Part shown: in pieces, positions 12,916-33,354 of the stretch
Layout of the letters: every line of letters starts with the position of its first letter
Position numbering within the stretch: the first letter of the stretch is position 1
Assembly: GCA_017449765.1 (NCBI GenBank)
Contig: JAFTFE010000060.1
Span: forward strand, 1-33,718
Direction: 5' to 3'
Source: Lachnospiraceae bacterium
GTDB lineage: Bacteria; Bacillota; Clostridia; Lachnospirales; Lachnospiraceae
Length of the DNA: 33,718 bases
The notes under the pieces: generated by a model
The model's input: only the letters and a program-made list of their open reading frames with translations
Told to the model about the DNA's origin: nothing
The model's database searches: none
Position numbers and translations under genes: made by a program

Positions 12916-12949
12916 AAGCGAGAAAAAATTTTTCTTGCTTTCTTTTTTA
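12916..12949 (+). terminator. Terminator of mntA-hepT
   Basis: An 11-bp stem with one G-T pair (12916-12926 with 12930-12940) is followed by a T-rich tract. It starts 11 bases after the hepT stop. Confidence 0.7.
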
Positions 12950-13010: not shown

Positions 13011-13703
13011 ATGGGATATACAGAACGAGAAATTATAAAAATGTGTGATATGGCTATGGATAATATAGCTACTTTTTATCAGCAGGATTTTATCAACTAT
13101 CGTGGTAAGGCTTCTGATACGGATGAGTATTATACAGAAATTATAGCTGAATACATATTACAGCATATTGAGAATTTTAGAACACAGATTCCTGTGATTA
13201 CAAGAAGTAGTTCCTATGATCAAAATCATGAAGGGACTTACAAAGAGGGTACAGGAAGAGATGAAGAAGTAATAGCGATAAAGATGTTTTTGCAAAGTAA
13301 TGTGGGTGCTCCATATGACTATATAGGAAAAATAATTGATTATCAAACCCCTCTTAAATCAAAGAAGTCTGATGTTGCGGGAAAGATTGATCTGTTGTCC
13401 TATGATGGTCATATATTAAGAGTATTAGAGCTTAAAAAAGCCTCGAGCGATGAAACAATGTTAAGATGTGTGCTTGAAGGTTATACATATTTATGTACAG
13501 TGGATGTTGATAAATTGCTTGCAGATTTCAAACTGCCACCAAATACAGAAGTTTGTTCATCGCCATTTGTATTTAGGAATGGAAAACAGTGGGAGGAATG
13601 GGCAGAGAAACGTCCGATGTTAATGGAACTTATGGATAAATTGGACAGTAAGCCATTTTTTATTGAAAGTAAAGAAGGAAAATATAAGGTTACGGAGGAT
13701 TAA
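13011..13703 (+). CDS. PD-(D/E)XK nuclease-like protein, first gene of cassette
   Basis: This 230-residue protein has GKIDLL with Asp127 and VLELKK with Glu140-x-Lys142, spaced as in PD-(D/E)XK nucleases. An earlier acidic helix (TGRDEEVIAI, 81-90) could supply the first Glu. I do not recognise a named family. It may be a stand-alone nuclease or an inactive nucleic-acid-binding fold. The ATG at 13011 follows GGTGAT by five bases. The next gene starts four bases after its stop. A short broken copy of this gene's start lies at 12031. Confidence 0.65.
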   Translation: MGYTEREIIKMCDMAMDNIATFYQQDFINYRGKASDTDEYYTEIIAEYILQHIENFRTQIPVITRSSSYDQNHEGTYKEGTGRDEEVIAIKMFLQSNVGAPYDYIGKIIDYQTPLKSKKSDVAGKIDLLSYDGHILRVLELKKASSDETMLRCVLEGYTYLCTVDVDKLLADFKLPPNTEVCSSPFVFRNGKQWEEWAEKRPMLMELMDKLDSKPFFIESKEGKYKVTED

Positions 13704-13706
13704 ACA

Positions 13707-14417
13707 ATGGAAAACCTTGATAACAAAGAGAAGATTTGGGGTGGAATATTGGGAACTATCGCAATTATTTCTGCGATATGTGAAATGGTTCTTGGTGGGA
13801 TAAATGCTGCTTCTGTGGCAGGCATGATTAAGGATGTTTCGGGAACATTGGTGGTTGTGGTTGTGCTAATAGCTTTTTTGAAGTCCCTGCCTAAGAAGTT
13901 AAAGAATATCGAGGATGTGCTGGAAAATGAAGTGGAAGCATGGGGGAAGGACAACACTCCGTTTATTTTTAAAACAACAGGATATGAGCAAGCAAAAGGC
14001 TCGGAATATACCCAGGGATTTTGTCTTTTGCAAAATACAGGTGAGTATATTTCGTTAGCGACTGTATTAAATGATGCTAATGATGAGCAATGGCAAAAAT
14101 ATTCTGCGTACAGGAGTAAGCAAACGGGCAAGTTTATTGATATGCCAAGCTATCATGATATGGTATCCGACGAATTTAAGGTTGATTTTATTATGGAGCA
14201 GGAGCATTTTAAGAAAATCGAAAATATGGATAGGTATATAAATGATATGGTTAAGGCTATATCGATAAGAAAAAGAAATATCATAAATGTGAGCAGAGCT
14301 GGGGAAGCTTCTTTAAGGTTTAGGGTAACATTTAATGTAATTCAGACGAAGGAAGACGTAGATGCTTTTGTGGATGTATTGGATTTTATATTATCTTTAG
14401 TAAAGGTTATTGCTTAA
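13707..14417 (+). CDS. Two-helix membrane protein of cassette, unknown function
   Basis: This 236-residue protein has two hydrophobic helices near the N-terminus (about residues 12-34 and 40-60), then about 170 residues of soluble sequence with charged helices, probably cytoplasmic. Nothing in it is a catalytic motif that I recognise. It lies four bases after the nuclease-like gene and is followed at once by the MBL gene, so the three form one operon. The membrane location suggests an anchor or an effector, but that is inference. Confidence 0.7.
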   Translation: MENLDNKEKIWGGILGTIAIISAICEMVLGGINAASVAGMIKDVSGTLVVVVVLIAFLKSLPKKLKNIEDVLENEVEAWGKDNTPFIFKTTGYEQAKGSEYTQGFCLLQNTGEYISLATVLNDANDEQWQKYSAYRSKQTGKFIDMPSYHDMVSDEFKVDFIMEQEHFKKIENMDRYINDMVKAISIRKRNIINVSRAGEASLRFRVTFNVIQTKEDVDAFVDVLDFILSLVKVIA

Positions 14418-14418
14418 T

Positions 14419-15615
14419 ATGGTAATAGATATTCTTCGTGGACAGAATCAAATAGGTGGCTCGATAATTGCAGTTTCAACAGATAATACAAAAATAATGT
14501 TAGATGTGGGGATCAATCTGGATGAGTCAGAAAAGGTTGAAATTCCCCAAATAAAAGGCTTGTTTTGTGATGGCCAATTATATGATGCAGTTATAATTTC
14601 GCATTATCATTCAGATCATATAGGATTGCTGAATTATGTGCTGAGGGATGTTCCCATTTATATGGGGAAGCAGGCATATGAGATTGTCAAAGCATCAAAT
14701 TCATATATAGGAAAATCTATTGAGTTTTCTCATTTGGAATATGGGGATGGGGTTTCATTTCAAGTGGGAGAGCTACTCATTACACCGTATAAATGTGATC
14801 ATAGTGCTTTTGATTCATATATGTTTGCAATATCAGATGGGTATAAAACGGTGCTATATACAGGTGATTTCAGGGCTAACGGAAGAAATGATTATGAGTT
14901 ACTGCTAAGCAAATTACCTAAAGTTGATGCTTTAATCGTGGAAGGCACTATGCTTTCAAGGGAAACCTTTCAACATAATATTTATGAAGAATCGTTAGAA
15001 GATATTGCAATTGGTGCAATAAAGAAATATAACGGACCTGCATTTCTTATGGCATCTGCCATGAATGTAGATAGGATTATAACCGGTTATAATGTGGCAA
15101 GAAAGACGGGTAGACTATTTTTGGAGGATTTATATACTGCCGGTATTATGGATGCCATTGGGAAGGATGTCCCTGCTCCCGGTACAGAAGGAGTGAAAGT
15201 GTTCATGACCGGTGGGGATAAACAGTATGAATTGCTTAAGAAATATGCTCATTGCAAAATTGGGAAAAAGGGAATAGCACATACAGACTTTTTGATGTGT
15301 ATACGTCCTTCAATGATCCATTATCTAAAGAGATTAAATGAAATTTATCCGTTTGAAGATGGCATTTTATTTTACAGCATGTGGAAGGGATATCAGGAAA
15401 GAGAAGACATGAAGGAGTTTCTTGATTATATGAAATCAAAAGGTGTGAGTGTACATACACTTCACACTAGCGGACATGCGGATATTGAGACGATTAACAG
15501 ACTTTTGGATAAGGTAAAGCCTAAGATGATAGTACCGGTTCACACGGAAAATCCTGAATGGTATTTGAGATATGGAGTGCCGGTGTTGCTTAAAGATACC
15601 GGAGTTGTATTATAG
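14419..15615 (+). CDS. MBL-fold/beta-CASP nuclease (RNase J-like)
   Basis: This 398-residue protein has the full metal site of the metallo-beta-lactamase nucleases: HYHSDH (His62, His64, Asp66, His67), His128 in KCDH, Asp150 in YTGDFR, and the beta-CASP motifs HTSGHAD (349-355) and VPVHTE (His375). These predict an RNA or DNA exo/endonuclease using two zinc ions. It lacks the RNase J C-terminal domain and is shorter (about 400 against 550 residues). The ATG at 14419 is one base after the upstream stop; a TTG at 14410 is an alternative. Ribosome site AAAGG is distant, so coupling is likely. Confidence 0.9.
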   Translation: MVIDILRGQNQIGGSIIAVSTDNTKIMLDVGINLDESEKVEIPQIKGLFCDGQLYDAVIISHYHSDHIGLLNYVLRDVPIYMGKQAYEIVKASNSYIGKSIEFSHLEYGDGVSFQVGELLITPYKCDHSAFDSYMFAISDGYKTVLYTGDFRANGRNDYELLLSKLPKVDALIVEGTMLSRETFQHNIYEESLEDIAIGAIKKYNGPAFLMASAMNVDRIITGYNVARKTGRLFLEDLYTAGIMDAIGKDVPAPGTEGVKVFMTGGDKQYELLKKYAHCKIGKKGIAHTDFLMCIRPSMIHYLKRLNEIYPFEDGILFYSMWKGYQEREDMKEFLDYMKSKGVSVHTLHTSGHADIETINRLLDKVKPKMIVPVHTENPEWYLRYGVPVLLKDTGVVL

Positions 15616-15625
15616 GAGATAATAA

Positions 15626-16027
15626 ATGAGTCCATTAACAGTGGTTTTATTAGTGCTTATAGGAATTGTAATATGCTGTATATATCCATATACATTTGAA
15701 ACCAAATATGTTGATAAATTTGGCGGCAAAGGCTTATCATATATATTGGCAGGAATATTGGGAGCAAGTGTGTTTTGGTTTTCATTGGTAATTGAAATGC
15801 CTGACAGCTGGCAATACACAGCAGCAGTTGTTTTGTTTATTGTTTCAGCAGTGTTAAATTTATATTGGATATCTAAGGAGTTAAGGCGGCATACGGTTCC
15901 CATAAGCTATAAGGTACAATTCGCCATATGTCAATTATTGTTTTCCGTAGGAGTATTTGGAGTTTTGTTTATTTTACTTGGGGCACTTTATCTTGCAGGC
16001 GGAGTTTCAAGAAAGAAGAAAAAATAG
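15626..16027 (+). CDS. Four-helix membrane protein of cassette
   Basis: This 133-residue protein has four hydrophobic segments (about residues 3-20, 37-54, 62-82 and 98-124) and a lysine/arginine tail (GGVSRKKKK). AGGAGATAATAA precedes the ATG, and the gene starts ten bases after the MBL stop, so it closes the operon. I do not recognise it. A small all-helical membrane protein at the end of a nuclease operon could be an effector or an immunity-like partner, which is inference. Confidence 0.7.
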   Translation: MSPLTVVLLVLIGIVICCIYPYTFETKYVDKFGGKGLSYILAGILGASVFWFSLVIEMPDSWQYTAAVVLFIVSAVLNLYWISKELRRHTVPISYKVQFAICQLLFSVGVFGVLFILLGALYLAGGVSRKKKK

Positions 16028-16092
16028 ACCGAATTAATAATAAGTAATTCAAGGTTTAACTTGTTTCATTACGGAAAATATAGTATTATATA

Positions 16093-16119
16093 GGGGTTGA
16101 TCATATATCAACCCTTTTG
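16093..16119 (+). terminator. Terminator of the cassette
   Basis: An 8-bp perfect stem (16094-16101 with 16107-16114) with a five-base loop is followed by TTTT. It separates the cassette from gatC. Confidence 0.85.
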
Positions 16120-16507: not shown

Positions 16508-16579
16508 ATTGTGAATTTTATATCAGAGAATTCTTTTTGTTATTTTAGTATGATAAATCTGAATTTGAGGAGTAAACAA

Positions 16580-16855
16580 GTGACTGAAGAACTTGCACGC
16601 ATGAAGCATATGATTGAGAATTCAGGGGATGCGAATATTTTACTTGAAGGTAATGACTACTTGCTTGTAATGTGTATTGGACAGCGTGATGCTAATGCGA
16701 AACCTATGTATATTGAGTTCTGGTCTTTTTATCATCATGATAAAGTGATATTTGATAAACAGGGAGTATTCTCACAAAATGAAAATATAGAAGACTTCCA
16801 TAAATTATGTCGAATAATTAATGATTATGGCTATACGATATATGACTTGAGTTGA
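16580..16855 (+). CDS. Small cytoplasmic protein between gatC and gatA
   Basis: I do not recognise this 91-residue protein. The start chosen is GTG at 16580, with GAGGAG seven bases upstream. The frame is open back to 16511 but without a site. It has the mixed charged/hydrophobic composition of a soluble domain, with NILLEGNDYLLVMCIG and YIEFWSFYHHDKVIFDKQG strands followed by a helical end. It lies 72 bases after gatC, inside what is normally a tight gatCAB operon, so it was probably inserted there. Confidence 0.55.
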   Translation: MTEELARMKHMIENSGDANILLEGNDYLLVMCIGQRDANAKPMYIEFWSFYHHDKVIFDKQGVFSQNENIEDFHKLCRIINDYGYTIYDLS

Positions 16856-16944
16856 TTATACAAATACAGATTTATTGTTGTATAAGTGCGTAAAAAATAC
16901 AGAATTTATAATAAATATTGGAAAGGAGTATATATGGAAAGATA

Positions 16945-17595
16945 ATGAGTGGAAATGTGAAAAAAATAGTAATGTGTTTTTTGTTAATAATGGCTGTCGG
17001 CAGTATTATTCCGAGTATTAATTCTCAGGCGGCTAGTAAAAAGAATATAAAAAAAGCTAAGGCTGCATATGTAAAAGAATTAAAGAAAGCAAAAAAGGGA
17101 AACAGTTCATACACTTTAGGAACGGATATTAAGTTTGCACTTGTTGATATTAATATAGATGGATTGCCGGAGATGTTTATTACAGGAGATGATTTGTATC
17201 ATGGTACGTTATTAGCCTATGTTAGTGGTAAGGTTAAGCAGGTTGGATACGTTTTTAGTGGCGATGCGGCTGTATTTACCAAAAGAAAAGTATACTATAC
17301 TTCTACTATACATACGGGTGATTGGTTTGAAGAGTATTATGTTTTTAATGGCAAGGAAATGAAATTAGTAGCATCTAAGCATGGCAGTGACTATATGAAT
17401 CTTGTAAACGGGAAAATGAAAAATTATGATAATGGTGAGGAAATTACATATGAGCCCTTTTTGTACAAAGTAAGAGGTAAAAATGTATCAGAGAGTGAGT
17501 ATGATAAATATGTCGCAAGGTTGACAGAGGGTAAAAGAGCAAAAATCAATTTAAAAAAATATAATAGTCAAAATAGAAAAAAGTACTTGCAGTAG
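16945..17595 (+). CDS. Secreted protein with DxDxDG-like motif
   Basis: This 216-residue protein has a Sec signal peptide (KKIVMCFLLIMAVGSIIPS, cleavage near QAA at about 29-31), a lysine-rich start, and FALVDINIDGLPEMFI (about residues 62-77). The last is the calcium-loop-like VDIN-x-DG-xPE pattern common in exported Lachnospiraceae proteins. Function is unknown. The best ribosome site (AAGGAG) points to an ATG at 16934 that makes only M-E-R before TAATG, so this ATG at 16945 may depend on coupling to that mini-frame. The gene lies between gatC and gatA. Confidence 0.7.
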   Translation: MSGNVKKIVMCFLLIMAVGSIIPSINSQAASKKNIKKAKAAYVKELKKAKKGNSSYTLGTDIKFALVDINIDGLPEMFITGDDLYHGTLLAYVSGKVKQVGYVFSGDAAVFTKRKVYYTSTIHTGDWFEEYYVFNGKEMKLVASKHGSDYMNLVNGKMKNYDNGEEITYEPFLYKVRGKNVSESEYDKYVARLTEGKRAKINLKKYNSQNRKKYLQ

Positions 17596-22270: not shown

Positions 22271-23248
22271 ATGAACACTAGAAAAATAAAGAATGCACCT
22301 ATACAGGATGAGCTTGACAATCCATCCACGGAGGATGAGCTTAAAAAGCAGTATCATCCGGCATTTTGCGCGGCGATGGAATTAGAGCTTAGAGAGGATA
22401 AGGCTCATCTCATATTTGAGGATGAATACAATCTGAATACCAAGCCAAACAAAATAGATTTTCTTGTGATAAATGTAAGTGGCAATGTCAGGGTAAAAAG
22501 CGGACTGGGAGCTATATTTAAGAAGCATAATCTATTTGAATTTAAGGGCTTTAGAGACAGCCTGAATGAAAGAGTATATCACCGTACTATGGGATATGTT
22601 CATCTATATATTACTTATGGTGATGTAAATATTCCCATTGATGAGATCACAGTGTCTTTTCTGCGTGAGGCATATCCCAGAAAGATGATGAAGTATTTTG
22701 AAGAAAATGGTTTTGCCATCACTAGCTATGATAATGGCATATATCATGTAAAGCGGTCGGGACATATAGATATGCAGGTCATAGTAACGAGCAGACTGGG
22801 GAATCCTTATGTGTGGATCAATAAGATCACAAGCAGGCTAAAGCCTGAGGATATACTGCAAATGCAGAAAGAGATAGCCGGACTTAGTGACGAAATAGAT
22901 CTTGTAAATGCAGAATCAGTAGTGGATATGAGTATATCACTAAATAAAGACAAAGAATATTTAAAGGAGATGATGGGTATGGGTGCTTTAAGAGATATGT
23001 TTAAAGAAGAGTTTGAAGAGAAGGATAGGAAGATAAGTGACTTAAGCGAGCAGCTGGAAAGCAAAGATAAACAGCTGCAAAACCAAAGCGAACAGCTGGA
23101 AAGCAAAGATAAACAGTTGCAAAACCAAAGCGAACAGCTGGAAAGCAAAGATAAACAGCTACAGACGGAGCATGAAGAGAATATTAAATTGCGAAAAGAG
23201 ATAGAAGAACTTAAAAAGCTTGTTGGTAACAAGATTGCAATGTTATAG
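22271..23248 (+). CDS. PD-(D/E)XK-like protein with repeated coiled coil
   Basis: This 325-residue protein has a nuclease-like N-terminal half: acidic residues near 50-52, Asp63 in KIDFLVI and Glu90-x-Lys92 in LFEFKG, the D...ExK pattern of PD-(D/E)XK folds. The C-terminal part (about 245-322) is a coiled coil containing three copies of the 14-residue unit SEQLESKDKQLQNQ. Close relatives in gut Clostridia are frequent multicopy hypotheticals; the function is not known to me. GGAAGGAG precedes the ATG. The gene has its own promoter and ends in a strong terminator, so it is a single-gene unit. Confidence 0.7.
   Translation: MNTRKIKNAPIQDELDNPSTEDELKKQYHPAFCAAMELELREDKAHLIFEDEYNLNTKPNKIDFLVINVSGNVRVKSGLGAIFKKHNLFEFKGFRDSLNERVYHRTMGYVHLYITYGDVNIPIDEITVSFLREAYPRKMMKYFEENGFAITSYDNGIYHVKRSGHIDMQVIVTSRLGNPYVWINKITSRLKPEDILQMQKEIAGLSDEIDLVNAESVVDMSISLNKDKEYLKEMMGMGALRDMFKEEFEEKDRKISDLSEQLESKDKQLQNQSEQLESKDKQLQNQSEQLESKDKQLQTEHEENIKLRKEIEELKKLVGNKIAML
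23045..23167 (+). repeat. 42-bp in-frame tandem repeat (about 2.9 copies)
   Basis: Units at 23045-23086, 23087-23128 and 23129-23167 are nearly identical and each encodes 14 residues of the coiled coil. Because 42 is a multiple of three, copy-number change would alter coiled-coil length without shifting frame. Confidence 0.9.
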
Positions 23249-24730: not shown

Positions 24731-26323
24731 ATGTATTCATGCAAAAATTGTGCAGGAAATTTACAATTTGATATAGGATCGGGTAAATTAAAATGTTCAC
24801 ACTGTAAGAGCCTGTTTGATCCGTATGAGGTAAGTGGTGGAAAGGAAGCAGACGAGGAACAGGAATATGAGGTTACAGTGTTTACCTGTCCGCAGTGTGC
24901 CGGGAGGATATATAGTATGGATACGCAGGCACTGGCGTATTGCAGCTTTTGTGGGGCATCTTCTGTGTTGGAGGGAAGGCTTGAGCACATGGAGCGTCCC
25001 AAGTATATTATTCCATTTACGGTGTCCAAAGAAGATTGCAAGAGATTATATAGCGAAAAGCTTAAGAAGGAGGGTTATGCACCGGACTGGCTGAAGGATG
25101 CTGAACATATTGACAGCTTTCGCGGAATCTACGTGCCGTACTGGATTTACAATGCGTCGCAAAAGGGATCTGTGGAAGTGCTTGCGACAAAAGCCATTGA
25201 AAAGACTATTGATAAGGTAAATGGATACACAGTGTATGGCGATTTGGAATGTGAGTACCGCGGAGTGGCATTTGATGCGTCGGCTGCCTTTGAGGATGAG
25301 ATAAGTGAACAATTAGCACCCTATGACATGAGAAAATTGCAGGATTTTTCACCTGCATTTCTTAGCGGCTTCTATGCAGATATAGCGGATGTTAAGGAAG
25401 ATGTGTATATGTTTCGGGCAGAAGAGATTATTAACAGGGCGACTACATCATATATTAACACACAGCCTGAGTTATACGGATATAATGTTGAGCATACTCC
25501 CTTTGCTTCGGATACATACCATACATTGATGGGAAAGGCGGAGCTTGCAATGTTTCCGGTGTGGCTGCTCACTTACAGAAGAAATGGACGGGTGGCATAT
25601 GTGGCAGTTAACGGACAATCTGGAAAGTTTGCTGCCCGGCTTCCAATTGACAGAAGGAAGTATGCAATAAGAAGTATGCTGTCGGCACTGCCATTGTTTA
25701 TTGTACTTTGTTCATTAGTGCAGCTTATAGGGGATAAATGGAATACTCTTATAACTTCATATATTATGGCTGTAGTTATTTTGTTTATTGCAGGGGTATA
25801 TTCTATCAATATGAAGCGGATGTGGGAGATAGAACATCTTACAGTTGACAGGGGCTATCGTGCAGGAAAGGGGGAGGAGGTTGATCTTTATAAGCGTAAA
25901 TTGAACTTTCAGAGTGTAACTTCCATGTGGGTGTTGGCAGGAGGTCTTTTTGGGGTAATAGCTAATATAATTGCATTGCAATTTGTTACTGATAGAGAAG
26001 TGGGAATGCCGGGGGTTGGGCATTTTCTTGTGGCGCTTGGATTAGCATTTTTTGCTGTACCTGTTTTTGTATGTATTAAAGAGACTTTTAAAGAAATATA
26101 TGATCCGGTCATAGTTAAGGAAATATGGTGGCTGCTATTAGCATTTATAGTAGAATTAGTGTGCTTTATGTTAGAGCCGACACAGATCATAAGCTATGTA
26201 GTGATAATTATTAATGCTATTATATGCGAAGGAGCCAGCCTTAAGCTTGTCAGATTTCATAACCGTATGACAACACGAAAGCTTCCTCAGTATAAATACG
26301 AAGGAGGTACCGATAATGATTGA
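24731..26323 (+). CDS. Membrane protein with two zinc ribbons
   Basis: This 530-residue protein starts with two zinc ribbons, CKNC...CSHC (residues 4-26) and CPQC...CSFC (about 53-74). A globular region follows to about residue 310, then six hydrophobic segments from about 315 to 505. It resembles the TFIIB-type zinc-ribbon membrane proteins of Lachnospiraceae, whose function is unknown. TAGGAG precedes the ATG. Its stop overlaps the next gene start by eight bases. A broken copy of its start lies at 27546. Confidence 0.75.
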   Translation: MYSCKNCAGNLQFDIGSGKLKCSHCKSLFDPYEVSGGKEADEEQEYEVTVFTCPQCAGRIYSMDTQALAYCSFCGASSVLEGRLEHMERPKYIIPFTVSKEDCKRLYSEKLKKEGYAPDWLKDAEHIDSFRGIYVPYWIYNASQKGSVEVLATKAIEKTIDKVNGYTVYGDLECEYRGVAFDASAAFEDEISEQLAPYDMRKLQDFSPAFLSGFYADIADVKEDVYMFRAEEIINRATTSYINTQPELYGYNVEHTPFASDTYHTLMGKAELAMFPVWLLTYRRNGRVAYVAVNGQSGKFAARLPIDRRKYAIRSMLSALPLFIVLCSLVQLIGDKWNTLITSYIMAVVILFIAGVYSINMKRMWEIEHLTVDRGYRAGKGEEVDLYKRKLNFQSVTSMWVLAGGLFGVIANIIALQFVTDREVGMPGVGHFLVALGLAFFAVPVFVCIKETFKEIYDPVIVKEIWWLLLAFIVELVCFMLEPTQIISYVVIIINAIICEGASLKLVRFHNRMTTRKLPQYKYEGGTDND

Positions 26324-27005
26324 AATATGGCTATATGTGTTAAGATATCTTGCAATGTTTTTTCTTGCATTTACAATTATGCTCCCGTATGTATTTCATG
26401 TGTTGAAGAATAGGGCGATAACAGGCAAGGGAGAACAGAGGGATAATCTCATATGGGGACATAATCGCAAAAGGATATCTAATATAAGAGTGGTGTTTGA
26501 CAAAGTGTTAGACGCACCTATCCGCTATGAAATGCCTGAGGAATACACTGTATCCCAATATGGTGATAATTATCCGACACCAAAGGATAAGGAGAGAGAA
26601 CGGGTATATGTGGATATCATCGACAGTGCTGAAGATTACGTACACATAATGACGCCCTTTTTGCAGGTTGGTGATGAGATGGAAAATGCACTATTAAATG
26701 CGGTAAAGCGAGGAGTAGATATTAAGCTTATTCTTGCAGGATCAGGAAATCAGAAATCAGCATTTACTATTACTGAGCATCAAATCAAGATATTGATTTC
26801 ATTTGGTGTGGAGATTTATGAATATCGTAATGGAATCATTTATGCCAATATATGCACCAGTGATAATGATAAAGCTGTGGTGGATTTTGCAAATCGCGGC
26901 TTATATCATCAGATGCCCGGACGTGAAGAAAAGCGGAGAAATGGGAGCATTGCGGAGATAGAAGGGGACTTTGAGAGAACACTTAAGAAATGTGTGAGGC
27001 TGTAG
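26316..27005 (+). CDS. Inactivated phospholipase D-like protein (cardiolipin synthase-like)
   Basis: This 229-residue protein has one N-terminal membrane helix (about 7-30). From about residue 97 it has a segment that matches the second half of cardiolipin synthases: VYVDIIDSAEDYVHIMTPFL and NAVKRGVDIKLI. Where the HxKxxxxD motif should be, the sequence reads Y176-A-N178-I-C-T-S-D183, so His and Lys are replaced (each by a single base change) and only the Asp remains. The first HKD half is missing. Catalysis is unlikely; a binding or scaffold role is possible. It overlaps the zinc-ribbon stop by eight bases. Confidence 0.7.
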   Translation: MIEIWLYVLRYLAMFFLAFTIMLPYVFHVLKNRAITGKGEQRDNLIWGHNRKRISNIRVVFDKVLDAPIRYEMPEEYTVSQYGDNYPTPKDKERERVYVDIIDSAEDYVHIMTPFLQVGDEMENALLNAVKRGVDIKLILAGSGNQKSAFTITEHQIKILISFGVEIYEYRNGIIYANICTSDNDKAVVDFANRGLYHQMPGREEKRRNGSIAEIEGDFERTLKKCVRL

Positions 27006-32450: not shown

Positions 32451-33354
32451 AACGTGATTCTGAGTTTACAGTTTCATTACCGGATTGGCTGTTATTATTG
32501 CTGTCCTTGCCGTTTCCGAAATTTCCGTCAGATTTGTTTCCACGTTTTCCATCAGGTCTTCCATTACCGTCAGCCTTACCGTTGCCGTCAGCTTTACCGT
32601 TACCGTCAGGTCTTTCACCCTTGCCTCCCGGTCCGAAATCCTCACTTGCCTTAGTAACAGATGTAACGTTGCCATCATCATCGAATGTAACTGTAAGACG
32701 TGTTCCTTCTGTTATGTCTGAAAGACTTATGTCCTGGAGAACTGCTTTGTCATCGATTGTAATTACTACAGTTTTGCTTTCGTGTTTTTTATCTGTATTC
32801 TTTTTGTTAGTATCCTTTTTGTCAGATGTACTGTTGCTGTTGTCATTTGTATCCTTAGAGTCTGTTGAAGCATCACTGTCAGCAGAATTCATGTCCGGAG
32901 GAGTCTGGTTGTCACCGTTGCTGCCAGGGAGATCCGGAGGAGTCTGGCTGTCGCCGCTGCCCTCAGGGAGATCCGGAGGAGTCTGGTTGTCACCGTTGCT
33001 ATCAGGAAGCTCCGAAGGAGTATTGGTGTCTGAGCTGTCTGTGCCAGACTGATTATCAGTGCTGTCAGCTTCTTTGTTGAAATCAGGTCTGCCCTTTCCA
33101 TCTCCCGGAGAGCCACCAGGACCGCCAGGTCTTCCGCCTATGGACAATGTAATTGTATTGCCATCTACTACAGTTACTTTTCCAATAACAGTTGATCCCT
33201 TGTAATCTGAAGTGCTTCCTGCCTCGGCAGAGGATTGTGTCTGCTCTGCAGTGTTGCCTGATGAAGCAGTATTGGCTGCCCCACACCCTGTAAGCAGTGC
33301 AGCTGCTAAAGCTGTCGATAAGGTTAGTGCCAAAAATCTCTTGTTTACTATCAT
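32449..33354 (-). CDS. Repeat-rich lipoprotein
   Basis: This 301-residue protein has a lipoprotein signal (MIVNKRF, hydrophobic run, lipobox LTGC with Cys24). Residues about 52-73 (KGSTVIGKVTVVDGNTITLS) and about 193-233 (KTVVITIDDKAVLQDISLSD then RLTVTFDDDGNVTSVT) form beta-rich segments like those of DUF5666-type proteins. Between and after them lie low-complexity Pro/Gly/Asp/Asn tracts, with three GDNQTPPDLP-type units and GNGKAD units. It should be anchored outside the membrane; a binding role is possible but not shown. GGGGAAATGACTT precedes the ATG. Confidence 0.75.
   Translation of the reverse strand: MIVNKRFLALTLSTALAAALLTGCGAANTASSGNTAEQTQSSAEAGSTSDYKGSTVIGKVTVVDGNTITLSIGGRPGGPGGSPGDGKGRPDFNKEADSTDNQSGTDSSDTNTPSELPDSNGDNQTPPDLPEGSGDSQTPPDLPGSNGDNQTPPDMNSADSDASTDSKDTNDNSNSTSDKKDTNKKNTDKKHESKTVVITIDDKAVLQDISLSDITEGTRLTVTFDDDGNVTSVTKASEDFGPGGKGERPDGNGKADGNGKADGNGRPDGKRGNKSDGNFGNGKDSNNNSQSGNETVNSESR
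32561..32614 (-). repeat. 18-bp coding repeat in the lipoprotein tail
   Basis: Three diverged 18-bp units (32561-32578, 32579-32596, 32597-32614) encode the DGNGKA-type repeat near the C-terminus. Confidence 0.75.
32897..33013 (-). repeat. 39-bp coding tandem repeat in the lipoprotein
   Basis: Three units of exactly 39 bp (32897-32935, 32936-32974, 32975-33013) encode 13-residue TPPDLP-containing blocks. The period keeps the frame, so copy number can change length only. Confidence 0.85.

Follow-up and report, generated by a model that had tools for sequence, protein, structure and literature searches.

What does a tight string of two nuclease genes and two membrane-protein genes do for the bacterium that carries it? 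The question arises from a 33,718-nucleotide stretch of DNA assigned to a Lachnospiraceae bacterium (contig JAFTFE010000060.1 of assembly GCA_017449765.1), referred to here as the window, in which an earlier note had picked out a cassette of four genes separated by gaps of 3, 1 and 10 bases; its coordinates and gaps were borne out on re-examination. All four genes lie on the plus strand. The first (13011..13703) encodes PDD, a protein of 230 residues with a PD-(D/E)XK nuclease fold, made up of a helical N-terminal part (about residues 1-60) and a nuclease core (about 61-230); we call its family P1. The second (13707..14417), which will prove to be the exchanged gene, encodes TM2, 236 residues long, in which an AlphaFold2 (AF2) model places two membrane helices and a soluble alpha/beta domain. 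The third (14419..15615, with an alternative TTG start at 14410) encodes MBL, a 398-residue metallo-beta-lactamase-fold nuclease of the beta-CASP group and the RNase J/CPSF type. The optional fourth (15626..16027) encodes TM4, a small membrane protein of 133 residues with four helices by hydropathy and a lysine-rich tail. The active sites described in the note also held: the MBL metal ligands (H62, H64, D66, H67, H128, D150, H349/H353 and H375) are invariant in 40 of 40 aligned sequences, and PDD has D127, E140 and K142, its catalytic site being complete in all 62 aligned members.

We examined how often these genes recur together. A scan with the PDD alignment of a species-genome collection (84,980 species, per its description) gave 69 loci, numbered here with the prefix L, a count that includes the near-duplicates L031, L046 and L050; the first two were left out of the correlations and exchange tests below, and all three out of the tree. 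In 49 of the 69, an MBL gene, truncated in some cases, lies within 3 kb of PDD on the same strand. Forty-six of these 49 loci belong to Bacillota and two to Bacteroidota, and one comes from an unassigned bin. The other 20 comprise six at a contig edge and 14 with enough downstream sequence and no MBL; PDD without MBL was also seen in Spirochaetota, Cloacimonadota and a Myxococcota bin. TM2 is present in 28 of the 69 loci, all of them Bacillota, and 25 of the 28 have MBL too, leaving 24 of the 49 PDD-MBL loci without TM2. A further gene, encoding a highly conserved 130-residue protein of unknown family that we call C3, stands directly 5' of PDD in 15 of the 69 loci (for example L017:7612-7998).

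Searches from the MBL side gave a similar picture. With the window's own genome excluded, there were 16 carriers among 392 genomes of the order and 14 among 391 of the class, several of the 30 being fragments or interrupted genes. A PD-(D/E)XK-type gene adjoins MBL in 22 of them (12 of 16 and 10 of 14, with neighbourhoods read by eye). Sixteen of these partners belong to P1, by profile hidden Markov model (HMM), or to family F2, which profile comparison finds homologous to P1 (97.5% probability, E 6.1e-12); the other six belong to families F3 and F4, which carry invariant D203/E216/K218 and D164/E181/K183 in alignments A11 and A12, respectively. The tentative PD-(D/E)XK-type label of F3 and F4 draws on these invariant D and ExK residues and on weak, motif-placed matches to the P1 profile (P 0.0014 and 0.0081, where two unrelated profiles gave 0.07 and 0.4). 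The misses were L078, L091, L092, L093, L125, L128/L134, L130 and L133, with L125 and L130 near contig ends. Plasmids also carry the pair: of ten matching records, eight were opened (one of the other two being a repeat), and six had MBL with a PD-(D/E)XK-type gene, in Ochrobactrum, Rhizobium, Cupriavidus, Cereibacter, Sphingomonas and Butyrivibrio, while L096 and L098 lacked it. In L095 the two genes are about 630 bases apart with a small open reading frame (ORF) between them, and in L097 the nature of the neighbour was read by eye.

The two nucleases also diverge together. Across 47 loci the PDD and MBL distances correlate at r 0.75, a value reached in none of 2000 permutations; in the 23 three-gene loci the correlation is 0.66 for PDD-MBL, and 0.21 and 0.26 for PDD-TM2 and MBL-TM2. 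We conclude that MBL and PDD, each with its catalytic residues complete, are encoded by co-directional genes that recur as a pair. The check proposed in the note, whether the four genes stay together in distant genomes, comes out in favour of genes 1 and 3, which are joined in 49 of 69 loci and have counterparts on Pseudomonadota plasmids, where MBL stands beside other PD-(D/E)XK-type genes, but not of gene 2, which was found only in Bacillota. Nor is the four-gene set a common unit: TM4 homologues occur in only two other loci, L009 and L040, and the four-helix genes directly 3' of MBL in L028, L044 and L078 differ from it in sequence.

Individual pairs of loci show an exchange of TM2. L014 and L016, from two separate assemblies, are 96% identical in PDD and 98% in MBL, and 27% in TM2. 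Their DNA identity is 95% up to a break 18 bases inside TM2 and 96% once MBL begins; a plus-strand comparison of the sequence upstream of the cassette showed no similarity between them, and downstream L016 soon ends. Each of the swapped TM2 genes is closely matched in another assembly (that of L014 by L029, 76%; that of L016 by L010, 73%), which makes an assembly error unlikely. L011 and L012 repeat the pattern (PDD 89%, C3 upstream 92%, MBL 92%, TM2 33%), the last 50 or so bases of TM2 being common to both. The reverse also occurs: L015 and L026 are 81% identical in TM2, 63% in PDD and 45% in MBL. In other pairs no exchange is seen (TM2 89% in L012/L017 and 82% in L011/L013).

A tree of the two nucleases is consistent with this. 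TM2 type requires ten changes on it, the least possible number being four and the mean of 300 shuffles 9.6 (lowest 7), so the types cluster no more than shuffled labels do; TM2 type 0 in this count is a broad single-linkage cluster that includes pairs as unlike as L011/L012. The window is itself an example: its nucleases group with those of L009 (Shimodaira-Hasegawa-like approximate likelihood-ratio test, SH-aLRT, 99), and its TM2 is nearest those of L040 and L020 (49% and 44%) and only 23% identical to that of L009. The TM2 gene is exchanged between cassettes while both flanking nucleases stay.

A second exchange affects the nuclease partner. L086 and L089 are 97.8% identical in DNA over a WYL regulator gene and MBL, up to a point some 30 codons short of the MBL stop codon; past this break come nucleases of different families, F3 and P1, and 97.5% identity resumes at the next gene. 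The break falls at a similar point in two further pairs, L085/L087 (91%) and L085/L090 (82%). In these sister cassettes the PD-(D/E)XK gene has been exchanged together with the last 30 or so residues of the MBL protein. Among pairs with MBL cores at least 75% identical, the tails are 72% identical where the partners belong to the same family (26 pairs, six of them nearly identical cassettes, without which the mean is about 64%) and 26% identical where they differ (five pairs, which share members and so are not independent). A tail used for docking the partner nuclease would account for the pattern, and so would crossover at the last strongly homologous stretch; the joint exchange may mark only the end of homology. 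The effect also fades with distance, to 39% versus 27% (same versus different partner) at core identities of 60-75% and to 21% versus 25% at 45-60%, and there are counter-pairs in both directions: L083/L090 share a family with tails 14% identical, and L129/L027 have different families with tails 68% identical.

What are the enzymes? In domain model scans the MBL protein matched the RNase J family at 1.4e-23 and RMMBL at 1.6e-7, and the profile of its family matched RNase J over nearly the full length at 1.4e-31. It has the HxHxDH motif, the further H and D ligands, the acidic residue of motif A and the histidines of motifs B and C that characterize the beta-CASP group, and it shares the C-terminal HxSGH and PvH motifs with RNase J. 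It differs from RNase J itself in length (398 residues versus about 555) and scores 83.1 bits with model TIGR00649, well under the curated cut-off of 400. Its motif C histidine would mark it as an enzyme of the RNA type. It also resembles the phage protein family PHROG 392 (1.1e-17), and three further MBL-type relatives, 27-29% identical, are encoded in the window's assembly. PDD has the core fold and the E, D and ExK catalytic residues of the PD-(D/E)XK superfamily, and its closest structural neighbour is EndoMS. Its alignment has 62 rows (A4) or 56 (A5, which lacks L008, L056, L069, L070, L074 and L076, those other than L008 for odd length or distance).

Several unlike proteins accompany these enzymes. 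In L029, the locus whose TM2 resembles that of L014, and in L037 and L038, MBL's place is taken by a different family of proteins, in which a D/ExK motif was recognized by eye and for whose kinship with PDD profile comparison gave no support. In three Veillonella species (L069, L070 and L073) PDD has a longer reading frame of 335-358 residues, and PDD and MBL lie near aminotransferase-like and rpsF-ssb-rpsR-like genes, named by eye. A PRGR...HY-type signature, recognized by eye, marks a small protein that adjoins MBL in L055 (7580-7990), L095 (5549-5953), L096 (7256-7630) and, upstream, L090, and is fused to the MBL N-terminus in L058; the L096 copy had no clear match in Pfam, NCBIfam or PADLOC. 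Other genes beside MBL encode an ADP-ribosylglycohydrolase-like protein (by eye; L091:1878-2945) and annotated metallophosphoesterases (L098:7449-8018 and L100:7209-7865), and DEDD-type 3'-5' exonuclease-like genes occur nearby in L027, L082, L098 and L134 (annotated in L098, the others by eye).

The two parts of TM2 differ in conservation. K42 and D43 are invariant in 27 sequences, and mean identity is 42% in the hairpin region and 23% in the soluble domain, which is probably cytosolic and for which no recognizable fold was found. In L043, a KAP-family NTPase replaces TM2. The note had cast the membrane proteins as effectors. A role in sensing or specificity agrees better with the pattern of exchange, and we infer, as our strongest specific claim, that TM2 provides input or specificity, with the nucleases as the output.

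Taken together, variable presence, differing contexts, exchange at gene borders with conserved enzymes, and WYL regulators point to a conflict system, with phages or other elements as the first candidates for its target. We put at about even the chance that the cassette is a modular conflict system in which two nucleases are tethered to the membrane, most likely for use against phages; an anti-phage function is plausible. In such a system TM2 would hold both nucleases at the inner membrane, where its variable soluble domain would recognize an infection cue, so that a change of TM2 would alter recognition. Upon recognition PDD would cut DNA and MBL would degrade RNA or the cleaved nucleic acid, both substrates being predictions, at the site of injection or in a host-wide shutdown, and the MBL tail would dock the partner nuclease.

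A number of observations weigh against this proposal. The 14 PDD loci that lack a nearby MBL despite enough downstream sequence (14/69) have been mentioned, and 42 of 71 PDD loci lack TM2. The sensor role of TM2 is argued from variability, its soluble domain having no recognizable fold, and the RNA-type assignment of MBL depends on the motif C histidine as a marker of RNA versus DNA enzymes. No PDD relative was confirmed in a viral collection or in phage records. We hold our confidence at even chances because a neighbour test showed no clear excess of PADLOC families: 150 neighbour proteins (from a pool of 450) hit 42 families, and 150 control proteins (of 229) from control regions of related genomes hit 63. 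WYL members appeared three times among the neighbours and not among the 25 control families listed. On proximity to known defence genes, the other half of the note's check, the result is mixed: it holds in the window, where the genes upstream include the PADLOC candidate PDC-S27 and an MntA-like nucleotidyltransferase, and in three of the eight opened plasmids, where we recognized by eye McrC (L008), DNA methylases (L097) and DUF262 genes (L098), but not as a clear enrichment over controls.

Of the other explanations, the one that survives best, unlikely as we think it, is a membrane-bound exclusion system aimed not at phages but at plasmids or conjugative elements, whose incoming DNA and transcripts it would destroy. 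The anatomy would suit this equally, members sit on plasmids, one of them (L100) beside Tn3 and TniB/TniQ genes, and some loci lie near integrases or recombinases (cluster c6 in six loci and c7 in five, named by eye, with a Phage_integrase match). Yet anti-phage systems are also commonly plasmid-borne, and no observation separates a plasmid target from an anti-phage role. Next, and also doubtful, is an accessory module for nucleic-acid repair or stress, in which PDD, with EndoMS as its closest structural neighbour, would nick or trim DNA, the RNase J-like enzyme would clear RNA and TM2 would serve as an anchor. More improbable still is a toxin-antitoxin-like or interbacterial polymorphic system with TM2 as a variable toxin or immunity component controlled by the nucleases: toxin/immunity loci typically exchange alleles at gene borders, and small membrane proteins such as TM2 and TM4 could be toxic, but the complete catalytic sites of all aligned members (40 MBL, 62 PDD) are better suited to effectors, and the 24 PDD-MBL loci without TM2 would have no toxin. 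That MBL and PDD are mere neighbours in accessory islands with no joint function, as the 20 of 69 PDD loci without MBL might suggest, is very improbable and largely refuted by the close, co-directional coupling in 49 of 69 loci, the co-divergence (r 0.75) and the range of PD-(D/E)XK-type families, P1 and several more, that occur next to this one MBL family.

A more ambitious version of the two-nuclease conflict system, which we advance only tentatively and think likelier wrong than right, is a plug-and-play immune platform. A constant RNA- or DNA-degrading beta-CASP core would offer its C-terminal tail as a socket to any of several PD-(D/E)XK nucleases, and another socket would take an interchangeable input unit, be it the two-helix membrane sensor, the KAP NTPase of L043, or a WYL regulator with an FtsH-like protease. 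The soluble domain of the sensor would evolve and recombine as the phage-recognition part, and DNA and RNA would be attacked at once at the membrane. If this is true, gut Clostridia and other bacteria share a widespread unnamed immune module, and beta-CASP nucleases gain a defence role outside CRISPR. Cassettes that are 96-98% identical in both nucleases and differ only in the membrane gene would then be natural experiments, bearing on whether the membrane protein sets infection specificity, a question open for membrane-localized systems. For KwaA, the exact sensing mechanism is described as unknown (PMC12904381).

Does the cassette belong to a system that already has a name? The note knew of none with this exact set, and indeed no PADLOC, NCBIfam or Pfam model covers it. 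In PADLOC-DB 2.0.0 no match counts as significant, the best being weak ones for PDD (Cas4, 0.00098), TM2 (JukA, 0.0065) and MBL (LmuA, 6.8e-5; RTasMBL, 0.014), with none for TM4; seven partner or accessory proteins of relatives gave nothing or 0.0098. Kiwa, SNIPE and Zorya likewise combine a membrane-embedded component with nucleic-acid-acting partners and act at the membrane (PMC12904381). The cassette differs in pairing two unrelated nuclease folds and in exchanging its membrane gene, and no KwaA, KwaB or Zor model matched the four window proteins at E up to 1; Kiwa and Zorya were compared by sequence and SNIPE by description only.

MBL-fold nucleases have been recruited repeatedly into differing immune systems as nuclease-protease pairs (Hachiman, AVAST, Lamassu, DRT and canu), where they are likened to ComEC, with trypsin-like or caspase proteases as partners and no mention of beta-CASP (PMC12799240). 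The FtsH-like AAA genes in the gene strings of some cassette relatives, which have a HEAGH motif by eye, recall these pairs. The cassette MBL differs in its RMMBL/beta-CASP motifs and PD-(D/E)XK partners, and none of the four cassette proteins matched a protease, whereas pairs of the HamM type have an adjacent trypsin- or caspase-like one. Cas14 is a precedent for a beta-CASP nuclease in prokaryotic defence, as effector of type VII CRISPR (PMC10910872). The MBL family profile matches it at 4.9e-14, whereas the window protein itself scores 30.9 bits against a cut-off of 800, and the window's close direct repeats (three families of longer repeats) include no CRISPR-like array. In Type I restriction systems, as in others with exchangeable specificity subunits, the gene for the specificity subunit, HsdS, is exchangeable while the enzymatic partners are constant, and the cassette likewise exchanges one gene while its enzymes stay; it differs in that no methylase is found among its proteins and the exchanged gene encodes a membrane protein. 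The sequence tests give no support for placing the cassette in Kiwa, Zorya, Lamassu or the MBL-protease group, and the likeness concerns a possible mode of action.

The surroundings of the cassette speak to its carriage. PDD occurs in three of 299 genomes of the same family, the window's included. In the five gat loci opened from the same genus, gatC, gatA and gatB follow one another directly, and the tested genes found 5' of gatC in the window are all missing, which marks this stretch as accessory; four of these loci extend about 13 kb upstream and the fifth 3.6 kb, and one is a second gat locus of the window's assembly. WYL regulators stand in the same gene strings in eight of the 16 order carriers (by eye). 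The helix-turn-helix (HTH) regulator beside MBL in L127, the one scanned, had weak WYL, CasR and CARF3 matches, and those of L084, L124 and L126 resemble it by eye. A WYL factor has been associated with CBASS (PMC9122588).

The cassette's own terminator, claimed in the note, corresponds to a hairpin at 16092..16116 (plus strand), 3' of the cassette, and a similar one lies at 12916..12940 (plus strand), in the interval between a HepT-like gene and the cassette; the terminator character of both is a consensus match only. Further downstream, at 16511-17595, two extra genes (114 and 225 residues, the latter with an N-terminus that by eye resembles a signal) separate gatC from gatA, unlike the five same-genus loci, where the two are directly consecutive. 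The two gat loci of the window's assembly (on C147 and C21) have GatA proteins 81% identical, and contamination is given as 5.29%; the bin may thus mix two genomes, which makes the window's host uncertain. Tandem repeats spaced 42 and 39 bases apart, both distances divisible by three, lie at 23006-23163 and 32894-33037 in ORFs of coding size. Finally, at 24731-27002, a 530-residue protein with no Pfam match overlaps a 229-residue PLD-family nuclease-like protein (PLDc_2, 1.7e-11), and this pair is possibly another conflict cassette.

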